Shown in pieces: positions 11-62,081 of a stretch of DNA of 64,000 bases. The position numbers and the translations under genes are program-made. Each line of letters opens with the position of its first letter. Position 1 is the first letter of the stretch. The stretch comes from Curtobacterium flaccumfaciens pv. betae. GTDB taxonomy: Bacteria; Actinomycetota; Actinomycetes; Actinomycetales; Microbacteriaceae. The DNA is taken from contig NZ_JAPJDC010000001.1 of the NCBI RefSeq assembly GCF_026241855.1, positions 2,604,001-2,668,000 of the forward strand, given 5' to 3'. The notes under the pieces are model-generated. The model made no database searches and was not told where the DNA came from. It saw only the letters and a list, made by a program, of their open reading frames with translations.

Positions 11-1954
11 TCAGTCCGCCAGCGGGACCTCGATCACGACCCGCTCGGCGGGGTCGGTGAGCACCCGCTCGAGGTCACCCCACGTCGCCGCCCGGCGGTA
101 CTCCCACCCGAGGCCCGTGACGACCCGCTCGACGTCGACGTGCTGCGGGGTCGACATCATCCGCCGCATGTCGGCCTCCGGCGTGGTCTTCGCCACCTCG
201 AGCCCGCGGAAGATCGCGCCACCGTGGTCGTTGCCGACGACGACCTGCACCCGGTGGGTGCGTTCTTCGGTGCCGGTGACGAACGCTCCGAGGTCGTGCA
301 GCAGCGTCAGGTCGCCGAGGAGCACGCGGGTGGTACCCACCGAGGCCGAGGACTGTTCGAGCGCCGCGGCGATGCCGAGCGCGGTCGAGACGGTGCCGTC
401 GATGCCGGCGAGCCCGCGGTTCGCGTGCACCCGGATCTTCTTGCCGAGCACCCGGGCATCGGCTTCACGGATGAGCTGCGACGCCCCGAGGACCAGCCGG
501 TCGTGCGGCCAGGTCACGCCCCAGACGGCCTCGGCGAGCATGGCGCGGTCGACGGGTCGGCGACGGAGCGCGACCTCGTCACGCAGGAACTTGTTCCGCT
601 CGGCGCGGTCGGCGGAGCGCTTGGCGTCGAGGTCCGGGCCGGCGTCGCCGTCGCCCAGGATCCGCCGGCTGGAGCCGACCCAGCGGCCGACCCACGCGCG
701 GTGCTCCGGCCGGGTCCGCCCCGTCACGCGGACGTCGGACACGAAGGTGGTCAATGATTCGCTGGGCCCACGCCGCCGGTTCCCGGGCGACGCGCCAGCG
801 GCGTCCGGGCCGTGCCGGTGGGGAGAGGCGCGGGCCGGGTCGAAGGGGTCGGCCGCCGGTCCGCGGACCACGATCGTCTCGACCCCGTCGCGCTGCAGGA
901 GCGCGGGGACCTCCCTGCTGAGGGTCGGGTGGCCGAGCACGACGGCCCGGCGGACGGCACCGCCGTGGTCCGGGTCGCGCAGCAGTTCGCGGTAGGCCAC
1001 GACCAGGTTGCGGCCGAAGCGCGCGCCGCTCGAGACCTCGGCGAGGAGCGGCGCGCCGAGTTCCCAGGCGATCCGCTCGGCGTCCTCGCCGGCGTCGTGC
1101 CCGGCGATGACGACGGTGCCCGGTTCGTCATCCGGGGTGAGTTCGGCGACCGGCAGACCGGTGTGCGCCCGGCGGGTGGCGAACGCCAGGTCGACCTCGT
1201 CGTCCGGCACGGGGCTGACGTGCTCCGGGGCGAGCCCGGCGGACAGCGGCTCGCGGAACGCGACGTTGAGCTGCGCGGGACCGGGCTGCCCGGTGTGCCC
1301 CGCTGCGGCGGCGACGGCCTGTCGGGCGAGGGTGCGCAGGGCGTCGCGCACCGAGGCGTCGACGCCGTGCGCCGACGGAGCCTCGACGTCGCGGACGAAG
1401 GCGACGGCCTGGCCGAAGATCCCCGGCTGGACGGTGGTCTGGTTGCTGCCGATGCCGCGCAGTTCGTCGGGACGGTCGGCGCTCAGCACGATCATCGGCA
1501 CGCCGGAGTGGTGCGCCTCGAGCACGGCGGGGTGCAGGTTCGCCACCGCGGTGCCCGACGTCGTCACCACCGCTGCGGGCCGGTGCGTCTCGACCGCGAG
1601 CCCGAGTGCGAAGAACCCGGCGGTCCGTTCGTCCAACCGCACGTGCACGGTCAGCCCACCGGCGCGTTCCAGGGCGACCGCCGCGAGGGCGAGTGCCTGG
1701 GAACGCGAACCGGGGCTCACGACGACGTCGGTGACGCCGGCACGCACGAGTTCCTGCAGGAGGGCGAGCGCGGTGTCCGTCGCCGGGCTGCCCGAACCGA
1801 CGGGGCCGTCAGCGATCGGTGCGGCCGTCGTCGTCGCGCTCGTGGAACTGGTCTTCGAGGTCTCGGAGGGTCGCGTCGTCCTGGTCCTTGTCCGTGAGGG
1901 TGGTGCCCGGCTCCGGCGTGGTGCCGAGGAAGTCCGGGTCGTCTTCGGGTCCAC
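11..1954 (-). CDS. menD: MenD, SEPHCHC synthase (menaquinone biosynthesis)
   Basis: Thiamine-diphosphate enzyme joining isochorismate and 2-oxoglutarate, the first committed step of menaquinone synthesis. The N-terminal SPGSRSQ block, the TTSGTAVANLHPAV segment and the C-terminal GDLTLLHDLGAF and GNDHGGAIF TPP-site blocks are present, so the enzyme looks intact. The start is unclear. Family homology begins near 1816, where only ATC is in frame; the nearest usual start codon is GTG at 1954 (used here, 647 aa with an R/T/S-rich extension), and another GTG lies at 2020. Both overlap the upstream PLDc_N gene, and I see no Shine-Dalgarno sequence. An insert of about 26 residues (RASPH...RRGPS, DNA 762-833) sits in a linker and resembles one in nadB. 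Confidence 0.92.
   Translation of the reverse strand: MDPKTTRTSSAPRRSRAPPSRTRTRTTRPSETSKTSSTSATTTAAPIADGPVGSGSPATDTALALLQELVRAGVTDVVVSPGSRSQALALAAVALERAGGLTVHVRLDERTAGFFALGLAVETHRPAAVVTTSGTAVANLHPAVLEAHHSGVPMIVLSADRPDELRGIGSNQTTVQPGIFGQAVAFVRDVEAPSAHGVDASVRDALRTLARQAVAAAAGHTGQPGPAQLNVAFREPLSAGLAPEHVSPVPDDEVDLAFATRRAHTGLPVAELTPDDEPGTVVIAGHDAGEDAERIAWELGAPLLAEVSSGARFGRNLVVAYRELLRDPDHGGAVRRAVVLGHPTLSREVPALLQRDGVETIVVRGPAADPFDPARASPHRHGPDAAGASPGNRRRGPSESLTTFVSDVRVTGRTRPEHRAWVGRWVGSSRRILGDGDAGPDLDAKRSADRAERNKFLRDEVALRRRPVDRAMLAEAVWGVTWPHDRLVLGASQLIREADARVLGKKIRVHANRGLAGIDGTVSTALGIAAALEQSSASVGTTRVLLGDLTLLHDLGAFVTGTEERTHRVQVVVGNDHGGAIFRGLEVAKTTPEADMRRMMSTPQHVDVERVVTGLGWEYRRAATWGDLERVLTDPAERVVIEVPLAD
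762..833. repeat. In-frame repeat insert, copy in menD
   Basis: This segment begins CTGGGCCCACGC and ends GTGGGGAGAGGCGCGG on the + strand. The same two ends, in the same order and orientation, bound a similar segment inside nadB (59438-59518). Both genes read it in the same frame, giving RASPH...RRGPS. The middle can fold (CCCGG..GACGC with GCGTC..CGGG). It looks like a small mobile or spreading palindromic element tolerated in protein linkers, but that is inference from two copies. Confidence 0.6.
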
Positions 1955-2168
1955 GGTAGCGGGCCGACGCACCGGGGTCGGCCGCCGGGGTGCGACCGAG
2001 CAGGAACCAGAGCACGCCACCGAGGACGGGCAGGACGATGACGAGCAGGAGCCACACGCCGCGACGCAGGGAACGGACGCGCTGACGCGGCATCGTGCCG
2101 CAGTCGATGGCCGCGTACACCGTGAAGGCGACGGCGGCCACGGCGACGATCAACCACAAGCGGACCAT
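1809..2168 (-). CDS. PLD nuclease N-terminal domain (PLDc_N) membrane protein
   Basis: A 119-aa membrane protein. Residues 1-20 form one hydrophobic helix and residues 36-58 a second (VWLLLVIVLPVLGGVLWFLLGR), the layout of the short domain found at the N-terminus of cardiolipin synthases and as stand-alone actinobacterial proteins. The acidic C-terminal tail has no catalytic HKD motif, so no enzyme activity is expected. The ATG is 7 nt after TAGACT (reverse strand, 2176-2181), so the mRNA is probably leaderless. The 3' part overlaps the uncertain start of menD and the two may be cotranscribed. Divergent from the DUF4229 gene. Confidence 0.8.
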   Translation of the reverse strand: MVRLWLIVAVAAVAFTVYAAIDCGTMPRQRVRSLRRGVWLLLVIVLPVLGGVLWFLLGRTPAADPGASARYRGPEDDPDFLGTTPEPGTTLTDKDQDDATLRDLEDQFHERDDDGRTDR

Positions 2169-7585: not shown

Positions 7586-7637
7586 ACGACGGACGGGAGG
7601 CACGGTGCCAGCTGGCACCGTGCCTCCCGTCCGTCGT
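7586..7637. terminator. Perfect 52-bp palindrome, bidirectional terminator
   Basis: Two 26-bp arms with no loop and no mismatch, centred on GGTGCCAGCTGGCACC, lie between the convergent genes menC and ccsB. There is no T-run, as is common in high-GC actinobacteria. The core is shared with the palindrome at 30475-30520. Confidence 0.75.
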
Positions 7638-20547: not shown

Positions 20548-20591
20548 CGGACGGGAGGCCCGTGGCGACGCCGCCACGGGCCTCCCGTCCG
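20548..20591. terminator. Bidirectional terminator palindrome (GGGAGGC family)
   Basis: Two perfect 20-bp arms (20548-20567, 20572-20591) enclose ACGC between the convergent trkA and proC. Core GGAGGCCCGTGGCG is shared with 33647, 46376 and 54767. Confidence 0.78.
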
Positions 20592-30474: not shown

Positions 30475-30520
30475 ACGAACGGGAGGCACGGTGCCAGCTG
30501 GCACCGTGCCTCCCGTTCGT
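30475..30520. terminator. Perfect 46-bp palindrome, bidirectional terminator
   Basis: 23-bp arms with no loop, centred in GTGCCAGCTGGCAC, between the convergent TetR and sodA genes. Core shared with 7586-7637. Confidence 0.78.
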
Positions 30521-39697: not shown

Positions 39698-39704
39698 GTC
39701 CGCC

Positions 39705-39840
39705 CAGCGCGCCTCCCATCCGGACTTTCACCGTCGGTCCCGGAATCCCACCGGGTCAACCTCTGTCGGGTTCGCACCCGTCATCAGTTCGTGGACTGTC
39801 ACCACCGGCTCGGAATTACACCGACCCCGGAGCGCTTGCG
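39705..39840 (-). ncRNA. FMN riboswitch (RFN element)
   Basis: On the reverse strand the conserved RFN segments appear in order: GGGGTCGGTGTAATTCC, GGTGACAGTCC, GATGACGGGTGCGAACCC, and GTGAAAGTCCGGATGGGAG. They match the six-stem aptamer that binds FMN. It stands upstream of ribE-ribB-ribH. Confidence 0.93.
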
Positions 39841-54701: not shown

Positions 54702-54766
54702 GTCACGGACGGACCGGACCCACGCCGCCGGTACCGGGGACGCGCCGGCGGTCTCCGTGCGGTGCG

Positions 54767-54814
54767 GGCGGACTGGAGGCCCGTGGCGGCGTCGCCACGG
54801 GCCTCCAGTCCGCC
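54767..54814. terminator. Terminator palindrome (GGGAGGC family) after aroQ
   Basis: 22-bp perfect arms (54767-54788, 54793-54814) around a GCGT loop between convergent aroQ and the FMN-reductase-like gene. Core GGAGGCCCGTGGCG is shared with 20548. Confidence 0.8.
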
Positions 54815-58129: not shown

Positions 58130-59032
58130 CTAGTCCCGCACGGGCACCGCGACGTGCTCGGGCACCGCGACGTCGATGTCGAGCCCGAGGTCGAGTGCCC
58201 GAGCCGAGTGGGTCAGCGCCCCGACCGAGATGACGTCGACGCCGGTGGCCGCGATCGCCGCGACGGTGTCGAGCGACACGCCTCCCGAGGCCTCGACGAG
58301 CGCGCGCCCGGCGACGATGCCGACTCCGATCACGAGTTCGTCCGGGGTGAAGTTGTCGAGCATGATCGTGTCGACCCCGGCCGCGACGACGGGTTCGATC
58401 TGGTCGATGCGGTCCACCTCGACCTCCACGTGCACGGTGTGCCCGAGGCGCTGGCGGGCCCGGGCGATCGCGTCGCCGATGCCGATCCCGCCGGCCAGGA
58501 GCACCGCCAGGTGGTTGTCCTTGGCGAGCACGGTGTCCGAGAGCGAGGTGCGGTGGTTGTGTCCGCCACCGCACCGGACGGCGTACCGCTCGAGTGCTCG
58601 GAGGCCCGGCGTCGTCTTCCGGGTGTCGACGATCCGCGCAGCGGTGCCCGCGGCGGCCGCGACGTGGGCCGCGGTGGTCGTCGCGATGCCCGACATCCGC
58701 TGGACCAGGTTGAGGGCGACTCGTTCGGCCCGCAGCACGGCCCGCGCCGACCCGGTCACGGTCGCGAGGACGTCGCCCGCCGCGAAGTGGGTGCCGTCGG
58801 CGACGTGCACCACGGCCTGGATCGACGGGTCGACGGCGTGCATCACGGCGACGAACACCGCACCGCCGCTCAGCACGCCGGGCTCGCGCGCGCCGAGGGT
58901 CGCGGTCGCGGTCGCCTCCGCGGGGATCAGGGTCTCGCTGGTGACGTCGCCCCAGGGCGCGTCCTCCTCGAGCGCGGTCTCGATCACGCGACGGAGCGCG
59001 TGCGGCGGGATGGTGCCGGGGTCGGTGGTCAT
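58130..59032 (-). CDS. nadC: NadC, nicotinate-nucleotide pyrophosphorylase
   Basis: Converts quinolinate and PRPP to nicotinate mononucleotide. 300 aa. RKTTPGLRALERYAVRCGGGHNHR holds the substrate-binding Arg/Lys/His residues; MLDNFTPDE and VEASGGVSLDTV are family motifs. ATG 59032 overlaps the nadB stop as ATGA. Confidence 0.96.
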   Translation of the reverse strand: MTTDPGTIPPHALRRVIETALEEDAPWGDVTSETLIPAEATATATLGAREPGVLSGGAVFVAVMHAVDPSIQAVVHVADGTHFAAGDVLATVTGSARAVLRAERVALNLVQRMSGIATTTAAHVAAAAGTAARIVDTRKTTPGLRALERYAVRCGGGHNHRTSLSDTVLAKDNHLAVLLAGGIGIGDAIARARQRLGHTVHVEVEVDRIDQIEPVVAAGVDTIMLDNFTPDELVIGVGIVAGRALVEASGGVSLDTVAAIAATGVDVISVGALTHSARALDLGLDIDVAVPEHVAVPVRD

Positions 59033-60777
59033 GCGGGTACCTCCTGCGGGACGGCTGCGGAGCCGTCGGCGCGTTCGTCCGTGTGCTCGTCGGGGTGTGC
59101 GTCGGGGTGTGCGTCGGTGTGGTCGGCGACCCAGGCGTACGAGGCCGGGGCGGTGGGGTCGGTGTCGGGGTGGTCGGTGCGGGCGTGCGCCCCGCGGGAC
59201 TCGGTGCGGGCCTCGGCGGCGAGCGCGACGAGTCGCGCCAGGTCGAGCAGCGCACGGTCCTCGTGCTCGCGCACGCCGCCGCCGGTCGGCGCCGTCAGCG
59301 CGTCGAGGTCGCGGCGTGCGCTGGCCAGCCCGACGGCGTCACGGAGCAGCCCGACGCGGTCCGTCATGACGGACTGGACCGCCTGCCGGACGGCGCCCAC
59401 GTCGTCGAGGTGGGTCGCGCCTCCAGGCAGGGTCGGACTGGGCCCACGCCTGCCGGTTCCGGCGCGCTGCGGAGCCTGCGGAGCGGCGTGACGGCCGAGC
59501 AGGTGGGGAGAGGCGCGGATCGCGTCGGCCGCTCGGGGCACCCTGGTCACGTGGAGACCGGCGTCCCCGCGCAGGCGGAGCAGGCCGGGTCGCGGTGCAG
59601 CGACCGCGTCCGCTGCGCGGACCGCGAAGACGAGTCCCTCGAGCAGGGAGTTCGAGGCGAGCCGGTTGGCGCCGTGGACCCCGGTGCAGGCGGCTTCACC
59701 GACGGCGAGGAGTCCGGGCAGGCTGGTGCGGCCCTCGGCGTCGGTGGCGATGCCGCCCATCGAGTAGTGCGCGGCCGGTGCGACGGGGACGCCTTCGCGG
59801 GTCCAGTCGAAGCCGGCGGCGCGGGTGGCCCGGGTGAGTCCGGGGAACCGCGTGACCAGGAACCCGGCGTCGAGGCCGGTGGCGTCGAGGAGCACGGGTG
59901 CGCCGCCCTGGTCGCGCACCGCGGCGGCGATCCCCCGGGCGACGACGTCACGCGGAGCGAGCTCGGCGTCCGGGTGCACGTCGGTCATGAAGCGGTGCCC
60001 GGCGGCGTCGCGCAGGACAGCACCTTCACCCCGGACGGCTTCGGACACCAGGCCGCCACCGGGGACGGCCAGCCGCGTCGGGTGGAACTGGACGAACTCC
60101 AGGTCGGCGAGGACGGCGCCGGCGCGCCAGGCGGCGGCGACCCCGTCACCGGTCGCGACCAGGGGGTTCGTCGTCTCGCGGTACAGGTGCCCGGCTCCCC
60201 CGGAGGCGATGACGACGGCGTCCGCGTCGAGCCGGCGGGGTTCCCCGAGCAGGTCGAGGACGTCGACGCCGACGACCACGCCGCCGCGGACGACCAGGTC
60301 GGTCAGGCTCGTGCGCTCGAGGATCGTGACGTGTCGGCGGTGCAGTGCCGCGATGAGGGTGCGTTCGATGGCGGCTCCGGTCGCGTCACCGTCGGCGTGC
60401 ACGACGCGCCACCGGCCGTGCGCGGCCTCACGACCGCGGGCGAGGTCGTCGCCGTACCGGTCGAGGGTCGCCGGGTCCGACGACCGGTCGAAGGGCACCC
60501 CGAGGGCGAGCAGGTCGCGGACGCGGGCCGGGCCGTCGGTGCACAGGACCTCGACGGCCCGGGCGTCGGCGCTGCCCGCCGCAGCGACGTGGGTGTCGGC
60601 CTGGTGCAGCGCCGCGGAGTCGTCGGCGCCGAGCGCCACCGCGATCCCGCCCTGGGCGTACGCGGTGGCGCTGTCGGCGAGCGCCCCCTTCGTCACCAGG
60701 GTGACGTCGTGCAGGGCACTGGCCCGGATCGCTGCGGTCAGGCCGGCGATGCCGGACCCGACGATGACGACGTGCAC
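59029..60777 (-). CDS. nadB: NadB, L-aspartate oxidase
   Basis: FAD enzyme oxidising aspartate to iminoaspartate for quinolinate. 582 aa. The FAD motif VIVGSGIAGLTAAIR starts the protein, and TDGPARVRDLLALG, EFVQFHPTRL, HYSMGGI and GANRLASNSLLEGLVF are family blocks. Two oddities: an insert (RASPH...RRGPS, DNA 59438-59518) like one in menD, and a His/Asp/Glu-rich C-terminal tail (HPDAHPDEHTDER). GTG 60777 is preceded by GAGGGAGACC. Confidence 0.94.
   Translation of the reverse strand: MHVVIVGSGIAGLTAAIRASALHDVTLVTKGALADSATAYAQGGIAVALGADDSAALHQADTHVAAAGSADARAVEVLCTDGPARVRDLLALGVPFDRSSDPATLDRYGDDLARGREAAHGRWRVVHADGDATGAAIERTLIAALHRRHVTILERTSLTDLVVRGGVVVGVDVLDLLGEPRRLDADAVVIASGGAGHLYRETTNPLVATGDGVAAAWRAGAVLADLEFVQFHPTRLAVPGGGLVSEAVRGEGAVLRDAAGHRFMTDVHPDAELAPRDVVARGIAAAVRDQGGAPVLLDATGLDAGFLVTRFPGLTRATRAAGFDWTREGVPVAPAAHYSMGGIATDAEGRTSLPGLLAVGEAACTGVHGANRLASNSLLEGLVFAVRAADAVAAPRPGLLRLRGDAGLHVTRVPRAADAIRASPHLLGRHAAPQAPQRAGTGRRGPSPTLPGGATHLDDVGAVRQAVQSVMTDRVGLLRDAVGLASARRDLDALTAPTGGGVREHEDRALLDLARLVALAAEARTESRGAHARTDHPDTDPTAPASYAWVADHTDAHPDAHPDEHTDERADGSAAVPQEVPA
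59438..59518. repeat. In-frame repeat insert, copy in nadB
   Basis: Starts CTGGGCCCACGC and ends GTGGGGAGAGGCGCGG on the + strand like the menD copy at 762-833, with a longer, diverged middle. Read in the same frame (RASPH...RRGPS). It lies between the FAD-binding body and the C-terminal helical domain. Confidence 0.6.
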
Positions 60778-60809
60778 GGTGGTCTCCCTCGTTCGGTCGG
60801 GTCCGCGTC

Positions 60810-62081
60810 TCAGCCGCGGGGCTTGGCCGCGAGCATGCGCTCGAGCGCCACCTTGGCGTCGGCCTGCACGTCGGCGGGGACGACGATCTCGTTGAGGACC
60901 TCGCCGCGGACGAGTGCCTCGAGCACCCAGGCGAGGTAGCCCGGGTGGATCCGGTACATCGTCGAGCAGGGGCAGACGACCGGGTCGAGGCAGAAGATCG
61001 TGTGCTGCGGGTACTCGGCGGCGAGCCGGTTCACCATGTTGATCTCGGTGCCGATCGCGAAGGTGGTCGGCTCGGTGGCCGCGGCGACGGTCTTCCGGAT
61101 CAGGTCGGTGCTGCCGGCGTGGTCGGCGGCGTCGACGACGGCCATCGGGCACTCGGGGTGCACGATGACCTGCACGCCCGGGTGCTCGCGGCGGGCCTGG
61201 TCGATCTGGTCGACGGTGAAGCGGCGGTGCACCGAGCAGAAGCCGTGCCAGAGGATGACCTTCGCCGCTTCGAGGTCGCTCGTCTCGTTGCCGCCGAGGG
61301 GCTTCCGGGGGTTCCACATCGGCATCAGGTCGGTGCTGATGCCCATCGCCTTCGCGGTGTTGCGGCCGAGGTGCTGGTCGGGGAAGAACAGGACGCGCTG
61401 CCCGCGCTCGAAGGCCCACTCGAGCACCGTCGCGGCGTTCGACGAGGTACACACGATGCCGCCGTTGCGACCGCAGAAGGCCTTGAGGTCGGCGGCGGAG
61501 TTCATGTAGGTGACCGGGATCACGGGGACGCGACCGTCGGCGTCGGGCTCGGTGCCGTACACCGCCGTCAGCTCCGCCCACGCCGCCTCGACGCTGTCGA
61601 TGTCCGCCATGTCGGCCATCGAGCAGCCGGCGGCCAGGTTCGGCAGGATCACGCGCTGGTCGTCGCGCGCCAGGATGTCGGCGGTCTCGGCCATGAAGTG
61701 CACCCCGCAGAACACGATCGCCTCGGCGTCGGGCTTCGTCAGGGCGGCGTTCGCGAGCTGGAACGAGTCGCCGAGGAAGTCCGCGTGCCGGACGACCTCG
61801 TCGCGCTGGTAGAAGTGCCCGAGGACGACGACCCGGTCGCCGAGGGTGGCCTTCGCCCGCTCGATGCGCTCGTGGAGCTCGTCGGTCGGGGCCGTCTTGT
61901 ACTCGTCGGGCAGGACACCCTGGCGCGGGGCACTCGTCGGGATGACGTCGGACATCGACGACCCCGGGCCGTACCCGGGGCGGGAGTCGAAGTCCCACGT
62001 CGGCACGGCGAGGTCGGGCGTGCAGGTGCTGCCTGCGGCCCTGCCGTTGGAGATGAGTTCGATCGTCGTGGCGATGGACAC
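60810..62081 (-). CDS. nadA: NadA, quinolinate synthase
   Basis: Iron-sulfur enzyme condensing iminoaspartate with dihydroxyacetone phosphate. 423 aa. The three cluster cysteines are expected in IVFCGVHFMAETADIL, GGIVCTSSNAATV and CLDPVVCPCSTMYRIHPG. GTG 62081 follows AGGAAACC. It lies 8 bp after the nrtR stop, first enzyme gene of the nad operon. Confidence 0.95.
   Translation of the reverse strand: MSIATTIELISNGRAAGSTCTPDLAVPTWDFDSRPGYGPGSSMSDVIPTSAPRQGVLPDEYKTAPTDELHERIERAKATLGDRVVVLGHFYQRDEVVRHADFLGDSFQLANAALTKPDAEAIVFCGVHFMAETADILARDDQRVILPNLAAGCSMADMADIDSVEAAWAELTAVYGTEPDADGRVPVIPVTYMNSAADLKAFCGRNGGIVCTSSNAATVLEWAFERGQRVLFFPDQHLGRNTAKAMGISTDLMPMWNPRKPLGGNETSDLEAAKVILWHGFCSVHRRFTVDQIDQARREHPGVQVIVHPECPMAVVDAADHAGSTDLIRKTVAAATEPTTFAIGTEINMVNRLAAEYPQHTIFCLDPVVCPCSTMYRIHPGYLAWVLEALVRGEVLNEIVVPADVQADAKVALERMLAAKPRG

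Follow-up and report, generated by a model that had tools for sequence, protein, structure and literature searches.

A dispersed 60- to 69-nt hairpin element inserted in menD and nadB of Curtobacterium flaccumfaciens, with relatives at tRNA genes of other Microbacteriaceae

Host genes and copies of the element

The analysed DNA (the window, 64,000 nt in total) contains two minus-strand reading frames, designated menD and nadB in the initial annotation, each of which carries one copy of a short element (Table 1). The Pfam matches are consistent with both putative gene names. The two copies are of two length classes: the inserted part was confirmed as 60 nt in menD (766-825, flanked by CTGG and AGGCGCGG) and as 69 nt in nadB (59442-59510). 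In the predicted NadB, with residues counted from position 60936 as the putative frame start, the insert is located between the domains FAD_binding_2 (residues 55-431) and Succ_DH_flav_C (518-595). Almost every congener has a palindrome with similar arms at the site of this copy, enclosing a loop of hypervariable sequence; locus L096 lacks the left arm. Elsewhere in the window, an FMN riboswitch was found at 39704-39838 on the minus strand (92.4 bits).

The initial annotation had described segments 762-833 and 59438-59518 as sharing both ends, and this was borne out by the sequence. Both are also read in the same phase, as had been proposed, namely on the minus strand as RASPHRHG...RRGPS (MenD) and RASPHLLG...RRGPS (NadB). 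The plus orientation given to them is correct for the folded strand (see below), but the genes are read on the minus strand and the element is antisense to them. A third match, placed in intergenic DNA at 54717-54750, is real and longer than claimed; this degenerate copy abuts a terminator-like palindrome.

Table 1. Coordinates of the element copies, host reading frames and palindromes in the window.
Feature	Position	Strand	Evidence
Element copy, 60-nt class, inside menD	762..830	+ (antisense to gene)	Covariance model, 82.4 bits, E 1.9e-17
menD reading frame, 669 aa; insert at about residues 396-420	11..2020	-	Open frame; Pfam TPP_enzyme_N, 8.8e-20
Element copy, 69-nt class, inside nadB	59438..59515	+ (antisense to gene)	Covariance model, 68.5 bits, E 9.1e-14
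nadB reading frame; insert at about residues 473-500	59029..60936	-	Pfam FAD_binding_2 and Succ_DH_flav_C
Palindrome CGCGCCTCC...(GG)AGGCGCG in nadB, holding the element	59416..59518	+	Alignment of 30 genus loci
Degenerate intergenic copy	54714..54774	+	27.7 bits; E 0.005 and 4.7e-4 in two model searches
Terminator-like palindrome GGACTGGAGGC...GCCTCCAGTCC, abundant family	54770..54811		Pattern counts

A BLAST search with window 750-845 (menD copy) against the source genome (3.78 Mb, two contigs) returned the query and nine further places at E <= 1.7e-4, the nadB and intergenic copies included, with E-values as low as 7.1e-22 between unlinked copies. Two additional copies of the nadB-copy subtype were recovered with the nadB copy as query. 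A covariance model was built from 12 own copies, the same 12 having been detected by BLAST beforehand; it recorded these as strong matches (E <= 3.4e-12) together with two weaker ones (4.7e-4 and 0.005), and four further matches with E-values of 0.34 or more were left out of the count. The source genome therefore contains 12 strong and two weaker copies of one dispersed element.

The consensus of 98 Curtobacterium model matches, taken over the window and 95 loci, is CTGG-GCCCACGCCGCCGGTTCCGGnnCGACGCGCCAGCGGCGnnCCGGCCGTGCCGGTGGGGAG-AGGC, with the ends CTGGGCCC and GGTGGGGAG. Insert length could be read in the 76 copies whose ends are recognisable: 71 measure 60 nt, three 69 nt and two 61 or 62 nt. 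In 57 of these copies, none of the six frames contains a stop. A sub-type with the ends GGCCCC and GGAGGGAC was seen at L006, L007, L014, L117 and L119; the first four of these copies are fused to CAGCTGGCACC palindromes.

A longer, autonomous copy was not noticed among the match lists, and a BLAST search with the menD copy gave no copies in plasmid or phage records. Pattern matches occurred in three viral contigs, of which L331 scored 57.2 bits under the model; the model found nothing in L330, and in L332 a 13.6-bit match elsewhere only. Positions 8640-8860 of L331, a contig from a viral collection, comprise a tRNA 3' end, a terminator, the element and a second tRNA 3' end, and this stretch is probably the host flank of a prophage.

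Fold, spread and occupancy of sites

The fold of the element is a single long, imperfect hairpin. Its bulges are conserved, and its upper stem is variable, with both sides varying in concert. TT is unpaired on the 5' side, single unpaired bases occur on the 3' side, and the two element ends pair imperfectly. In a sequence-only alignment of the 12 own copies, 91.6% of the cells pair and 9 of 22 pairs show two-sided changes, which was equalled by none of 500 shuffles. Two larger alignments were fitted to the model and are thus biased towards structure: 92 distinct Curtobacterium rows gave 95.7% paired cells and nine covarying pairs (pair count attained by 1 of 500 shuffles, the other measures by none), and 21 rows of other genera gave 94.1% paired cells and two-sided changes in 14 of 22 pairs (0/500 shuffles). 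Wobble cells were counted as 120 G-T versus 4 A-C in Curtobacterium and 28 versus 2 in the other genera. From this excess, the plus strand of the element is identified as the folded strand; in the window, it is antisense to both menD and nadB.

High GC content and the hypervariable linkers at the nadB and ABC-gene sites would favour chance similarity of GC-rich linkers. This explanation is refuted by the E-values down to 7.1e-22 between unlinked copies and by covariation that no shuffle of 500 equalled.

All 36 Curtobacterium genomes, the own genome included, contained matches, with numbers ranging from at least 1 to at least 67 per genome (at least 14 in the own genome, 34 in G005, 24 in G028, 67 in G025, 32 in G027 and 1 in G014). 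The element also occurs, in diverged form, in other Microbacteriaceae. Within a Microbacteriaceae sample, 44 of 249 genomes and 29 of 85 genera gave matches, the own genus included; stricter filters applied there, under which two of the five listed Curtobacterium members were without match. Other families yielded weak matches in 3 of 23 genomes, with a best E-value of 1.4e-4. A pattern scan of named genomes returned at least 120 stretches, and among the 80 matches listed, 74 were from Curtobacterium and six from 'Microbacteriaceae bacterium'.

The menD site was matched in 40 genomes and 30 loci were aligned, own included; the nadB site was treated likewise (30 of 40). Both inserts are missing at 26 of 30 loci and hence are not conserved in all relatives. 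At menD, the four filled loci belong to the own genome, G004, G005 and G011, and the same-species genome G059 is among the empty ones. At nadB, the own genome, G032, G004 and G025 are filled at the identical point, and G059 is empty again. One of the 26 non-filled nadB loci (L084, from G013) carries a copy of the 69-nt class, reversed in orientation and located in the other arm of the nadB palindrome, apparently an independent event on one gene.

The net gain in length between filled and empty sites was +57 at menD (versus the same-species genome), +69 at nadB and +60 at L002. The cleanest site is nadB, where the empty GGTCGGACGGG^AGGCGCGGATCGCG of L085 compares with GGTCGGACTGG[69 nt]AGGCGCGGATCGCG in the own genome; a single base differs besides the 69 nt, and a target duplication is absent. 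Left junctions are often not clean: at menD, 16 nt of the empty site are replaced by 13 unrelated nt. In the pair L308 (filled) and L327 (empty), the two sequences agree on the left up to CCTGG and have diverged on the right, and their lengths differ by a net 59 nt.

Eight more own copies were compared against six genomes. Two (L002, L013) were empty in the aligned relatives, and four (L003, L004, L006, L012) were filled in some relatives and empty or shortened in others; for L001 only a filled relative was found, and for L007 no relative matched. Partly deleted copies are present in several relatives (L304, L306, L316), so some absences may be losses.

A conserved structured RNA, cis-regulatory or small, would account for the covariation, the one-strand G-U bias and the family-wide spread without any mobility. 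We consider it very unlikely, given that copies lie in both orientations relative to host genes, are dispersed at up to at least 67 per genus genome and are absent in close relatives. Moreover, none of the stretches compared with Rfam gave a match for the element that passed the gathering score: it had none at this level in the window, and a search by E-value of five own loci and six loci of other genera returned sub-threshold matches only, besides tRNAs and one SRP RNA.

Protein genes, junctions and tRNA sites

By a codon-usage test, 26 of the 98 copies were flagged as intragenic. Long frames continue on both sides of 23 of these, orthologous copies from different genomes included, and the remaining three (L019, L111, L142) sit at frame ends. 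The test overlooked L079 (the nadB copy of G025) as well as L012 and L013, the latter in the frame of a DEAD helicase. Pfam matches were obtained for 16 of 19 scanned host frames (none for L107, L012 and L004): MenD-like, NadB-like, S-adenosylhomocysteine hydrolase, Mur ligase (L018, L027, L029), GH92, ABC transporters (L124, L136, L002), MFS, HGSNAT-like, alpha/beta hydrolase, DUF6177, DEAD helicase and GH8 (L019, at the frame end). The element is thus hosted by 11 unrelated Pfam families, or 12 if GH8 is counted. The L002 gene has two ABC domains and may be ABC-F-like.

The 23 intragenic copies lie in both orientations and in five of the six phases (11, 3, 6, 2 and 1). The common RASPH frame is accordingly true of the MenD/NadB pair but not general, and is a coincidence. 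A protein module selected for its peptide is ruled out by the same two observations. Copies in genes would survive, with the frame kept in either orientation, since most inserts measure 60 or 69 nt, stops are largely lacking in them and the linkers they enter are tolerant; their survival need not be an adaptation.

The right junction reads GGGG(A/G)G^AGG in 76 of 97 Curtobacterium copies (orthologous copies counted separately, and one of the 98 dropped as its end was not recognisable). The 3' end GGTGGGGAG is most often joined to AGG in this genus, often in the arm of a GGAC(T/G)GGAGGC palindrome. CCTCC was found in the 60 nt to either side of 52 of 98 copies, compared with about 13% for random points drawn from those loci. 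The terminator-like palindromes are often split by the element; in L036, L120, L126 and L141 it interrupts one arm. Almost all congeners have a palindrome of this kind as their empty nadB site. In the window, GGACKGGAGGC was found eight times exactly (0.42 expected) and 18 times with one mismatch (8.8 expected), and the stretch around the palindrome at 54770-54811 gave 79 genome matches, both strands counted. Besides this one, terminator-like palindromes with arms GGAC(T/G)GGAGGC were observed at window 7591-7632, 20549-20590 and 30477-30518, the arms of the last carrying one mismatch.

Direct repeats flank 1 of 98 Curtobacterium copies versus 3 of 118 control pairs, in a scan that repeats under 11 nt escape. 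A tRNA was present in one of the 60 Curtobacterium loci, of about 95 in all, that were scanned for tRNA genes. Evidence that all copies share an outer palindrome is weak: in Curtobacterium, flanks of 35 nt had a mean of 6.56 versus 6.23 (sd 0.15) for mismatched pairs, the top of 200 shuffles being 6.59, and flanks of 60 nt had 7.96 versus 7.70 (sd 0.19).

For the other genera, 20 loci were chosen from the match list, one place per genome and mostly high-ranking. ARAGORN detected a tRNA in ten of them (two each of Ser, Leu, Pro and Lys, one Tyr, and one Met with a neighbouring Thr), and at these ten the element starts 62-79 nt downstream of the tRNA end on the same strand. A tRNA-Pro 3' fragment was seen by eye in L291. 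At 9 of the 20 loci, the tRNA 3' end is repeated directly after the element over 13-98 nt, compared with 3 of 118 control pairs; the repeat of L297 barely attains the threshold score. The repeated sequence begins in the T-loop in seven of the nine and includes the terminator in L285, L287, L289 and L298. The 3' end of the element in these genera, GGTGGGGA, is often joined to the duplicated tRNA 3' end.

A tRNA-Ser(GGA) lies in positions 1340-1942 of L287, with two units of 155 nt in tandem behind it; each unit comprises the tRNA 3' end, the terminator, an inverted stretch resembling the T-arm, and the element. This tRNA-Ser locus was compared across nine genomes of that genus, the one holding L287 among them. 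Under the model, three carry the element there (G289, G314, G312), G189 has a weak truncated match of 15.5 bits and the remaining five have no match. Inspected by eye, two of these five have degenerate versions (G242, G310) and three have none (G311, G120, G313).

Around eleven tRNA-associated copies, 40-nt flanks gave an outer palindrome score of 8.55 versus 6.08 (sd 0.46, highest 7.36) in controls; with flanks of 30 and 32 nt, the same copies lay inside the range of the controls or at its margin, and nine non-tRNA copies of other genera lay inside it. The inverted left flank resembles the 3' end of the site's own tRNA at seven of ten tRNA sites (random 28-mer fractions 0.016-0.053), the exceptions being L281, L295 and L297. 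L284, L287 and L299 also score 10 in the sense orientation, because the T-arm is itself nearly palindromic. An inverted T-arm to the left of the element is likely at tRNA sites.

Integrative elements at tRNA sites leave the tRNA 3' end duplicated beside an intact tRNA. The order tRNA then X-element-X at 9 of 20 loci, with X usually starting in the T-loop, and the tandem units of L287 could accordingly reflect a very small integrative unit of about 155-170 nt, with the tRNA 3' end as attachment core, the element as one end and a phage-type tyrosine recombinase moving the unit in trans. This explanation is improbable in our judgement: an integrase gene cannot fit into such a unit, X includes the terminator in four of nine cases and so exceeds what an attachment core needs, and the Curtobacterium copies are without tRNA core and without direct repeats above control level.

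Proposed movement and comparison with known repeats

To the observed repeat, fold, one-strand signature, polymorphism and junctions we add the following reading. The element is probably a non-autonomous mobile hairpin, moved by an enzyme that acts on a folded single strand. A putative recombinase or transposase would recognise the folded strand as ssDNA or RNA and would join the hairpin 3' end to hairpin-prone targets.

A more specific version is offered tentatively, as one possibility. The folded single strand (ssDNA or RNA) might be copied by an enzyme outside the described element families, RNA being allowed because of the G-U bias. In several genera, this enzyme might join the 3' end of the hairpin to T-loops of tRNAs, copying the tRNA 3' end, in some cases with the terminator, and with an inverted T-arm opposite; Curtobacterium might have switched to the terminator palindrome, giving rise to protein inserts of about 20-23 residues. 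As long direct repeats occur at the tRNA sites and not in Curtobacterium, one mechanism for both is an assumption.

An imperfect dispersed hairpin in which unpaired bases of one strand are conserved and which inserts without target duplication is also what a REP-like element moved by a RAYT or IS200-IS605 HUH transposase on single-stranded DNA would look like. This origin is unlikely, since PF01797 (Y1_Tnp) was detected in none of 40 genus genomes at E <= 0.001, with 5 of 14 control genomes positive, and since the GTAG tag of such REPs is at neither end of the 98 copies read. IS110 was considered separately and is not supported as mover: its transposase is present in 6 of 40 genomes, one each in the copy-rich G025 and G027 and in G014, and is lacking in the own genome as well as in G005 and G028.

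Protein-coding palindromic repeats have been described for Rickettsia and Wolbachia, in accounts that leave their movement open (PMC2229807, PMC3767692). The RPEs of Rickettsia, given as 105-146 bp, lie in frame in 19 protein genes, and translation and enzyme activity were demonstrated for one RPE-bearing protein (PMC2229807). Those of R. conorii end in CGTC, and CGTC repeats are apparently without a dedicated transposase (PMC3733652). The mobile hairpin proposed here resembles RPEs as a small palindromic repeat found in frame in many conserved proteins and in intergenic DNA, with a mode of movement not shown in the accounts cited (PMC2229807, PMC3767692, PMC3733652). However, it measures 60-69 nt versus about 100-150 for RPEs, as far as the cited description goes, is of high GC content and actinobacterial (Curtobacterium and other Microbacteriaceae), is without a CGTC end tag, and has a preferred target, five of six phases and tRNA 3'-end junctions in relatives. 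It works like the RPEs but is not a member of that family, as length, end tag and host do not agree.

The CGTC REPs, as characterised in PMC3733652, likewise are a palindromic family apparently without dedicated transposase; in contrast, our element is without their tag and preferentially enters another palindrome. Bacterial MITEs (Correia/NEMIS, ERIC, RUP) are in the same way small, non-autonomous and stem-loop forming and occur between and inside genes (PMC2229807). Measured against that description, the Curtobacterium element differs in having neither target duplication nor TA ends, and no related IS was noticed. A literature search limited to open-licence papers found no published description of the element.

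The interpretation given in the initial annotation, a small repetitive element comparable in concept to RPEs that enters proteins, is supported by the dispersed copies, by presence and absence among relatives and by in-frame inserts in unrelated proteins. The hosts here are a GC-rich, free-living group of soil- and plant-dwelling bacteria. For annotation, caution is advised, as inserts of the element resemble natural linkers. The element is polymorphic within one species, has a preferred target and two classes of target, and forms a covarying structure specific to one strand, which makes both the mechanism and the cost of an insert to an enzyme directly testable.
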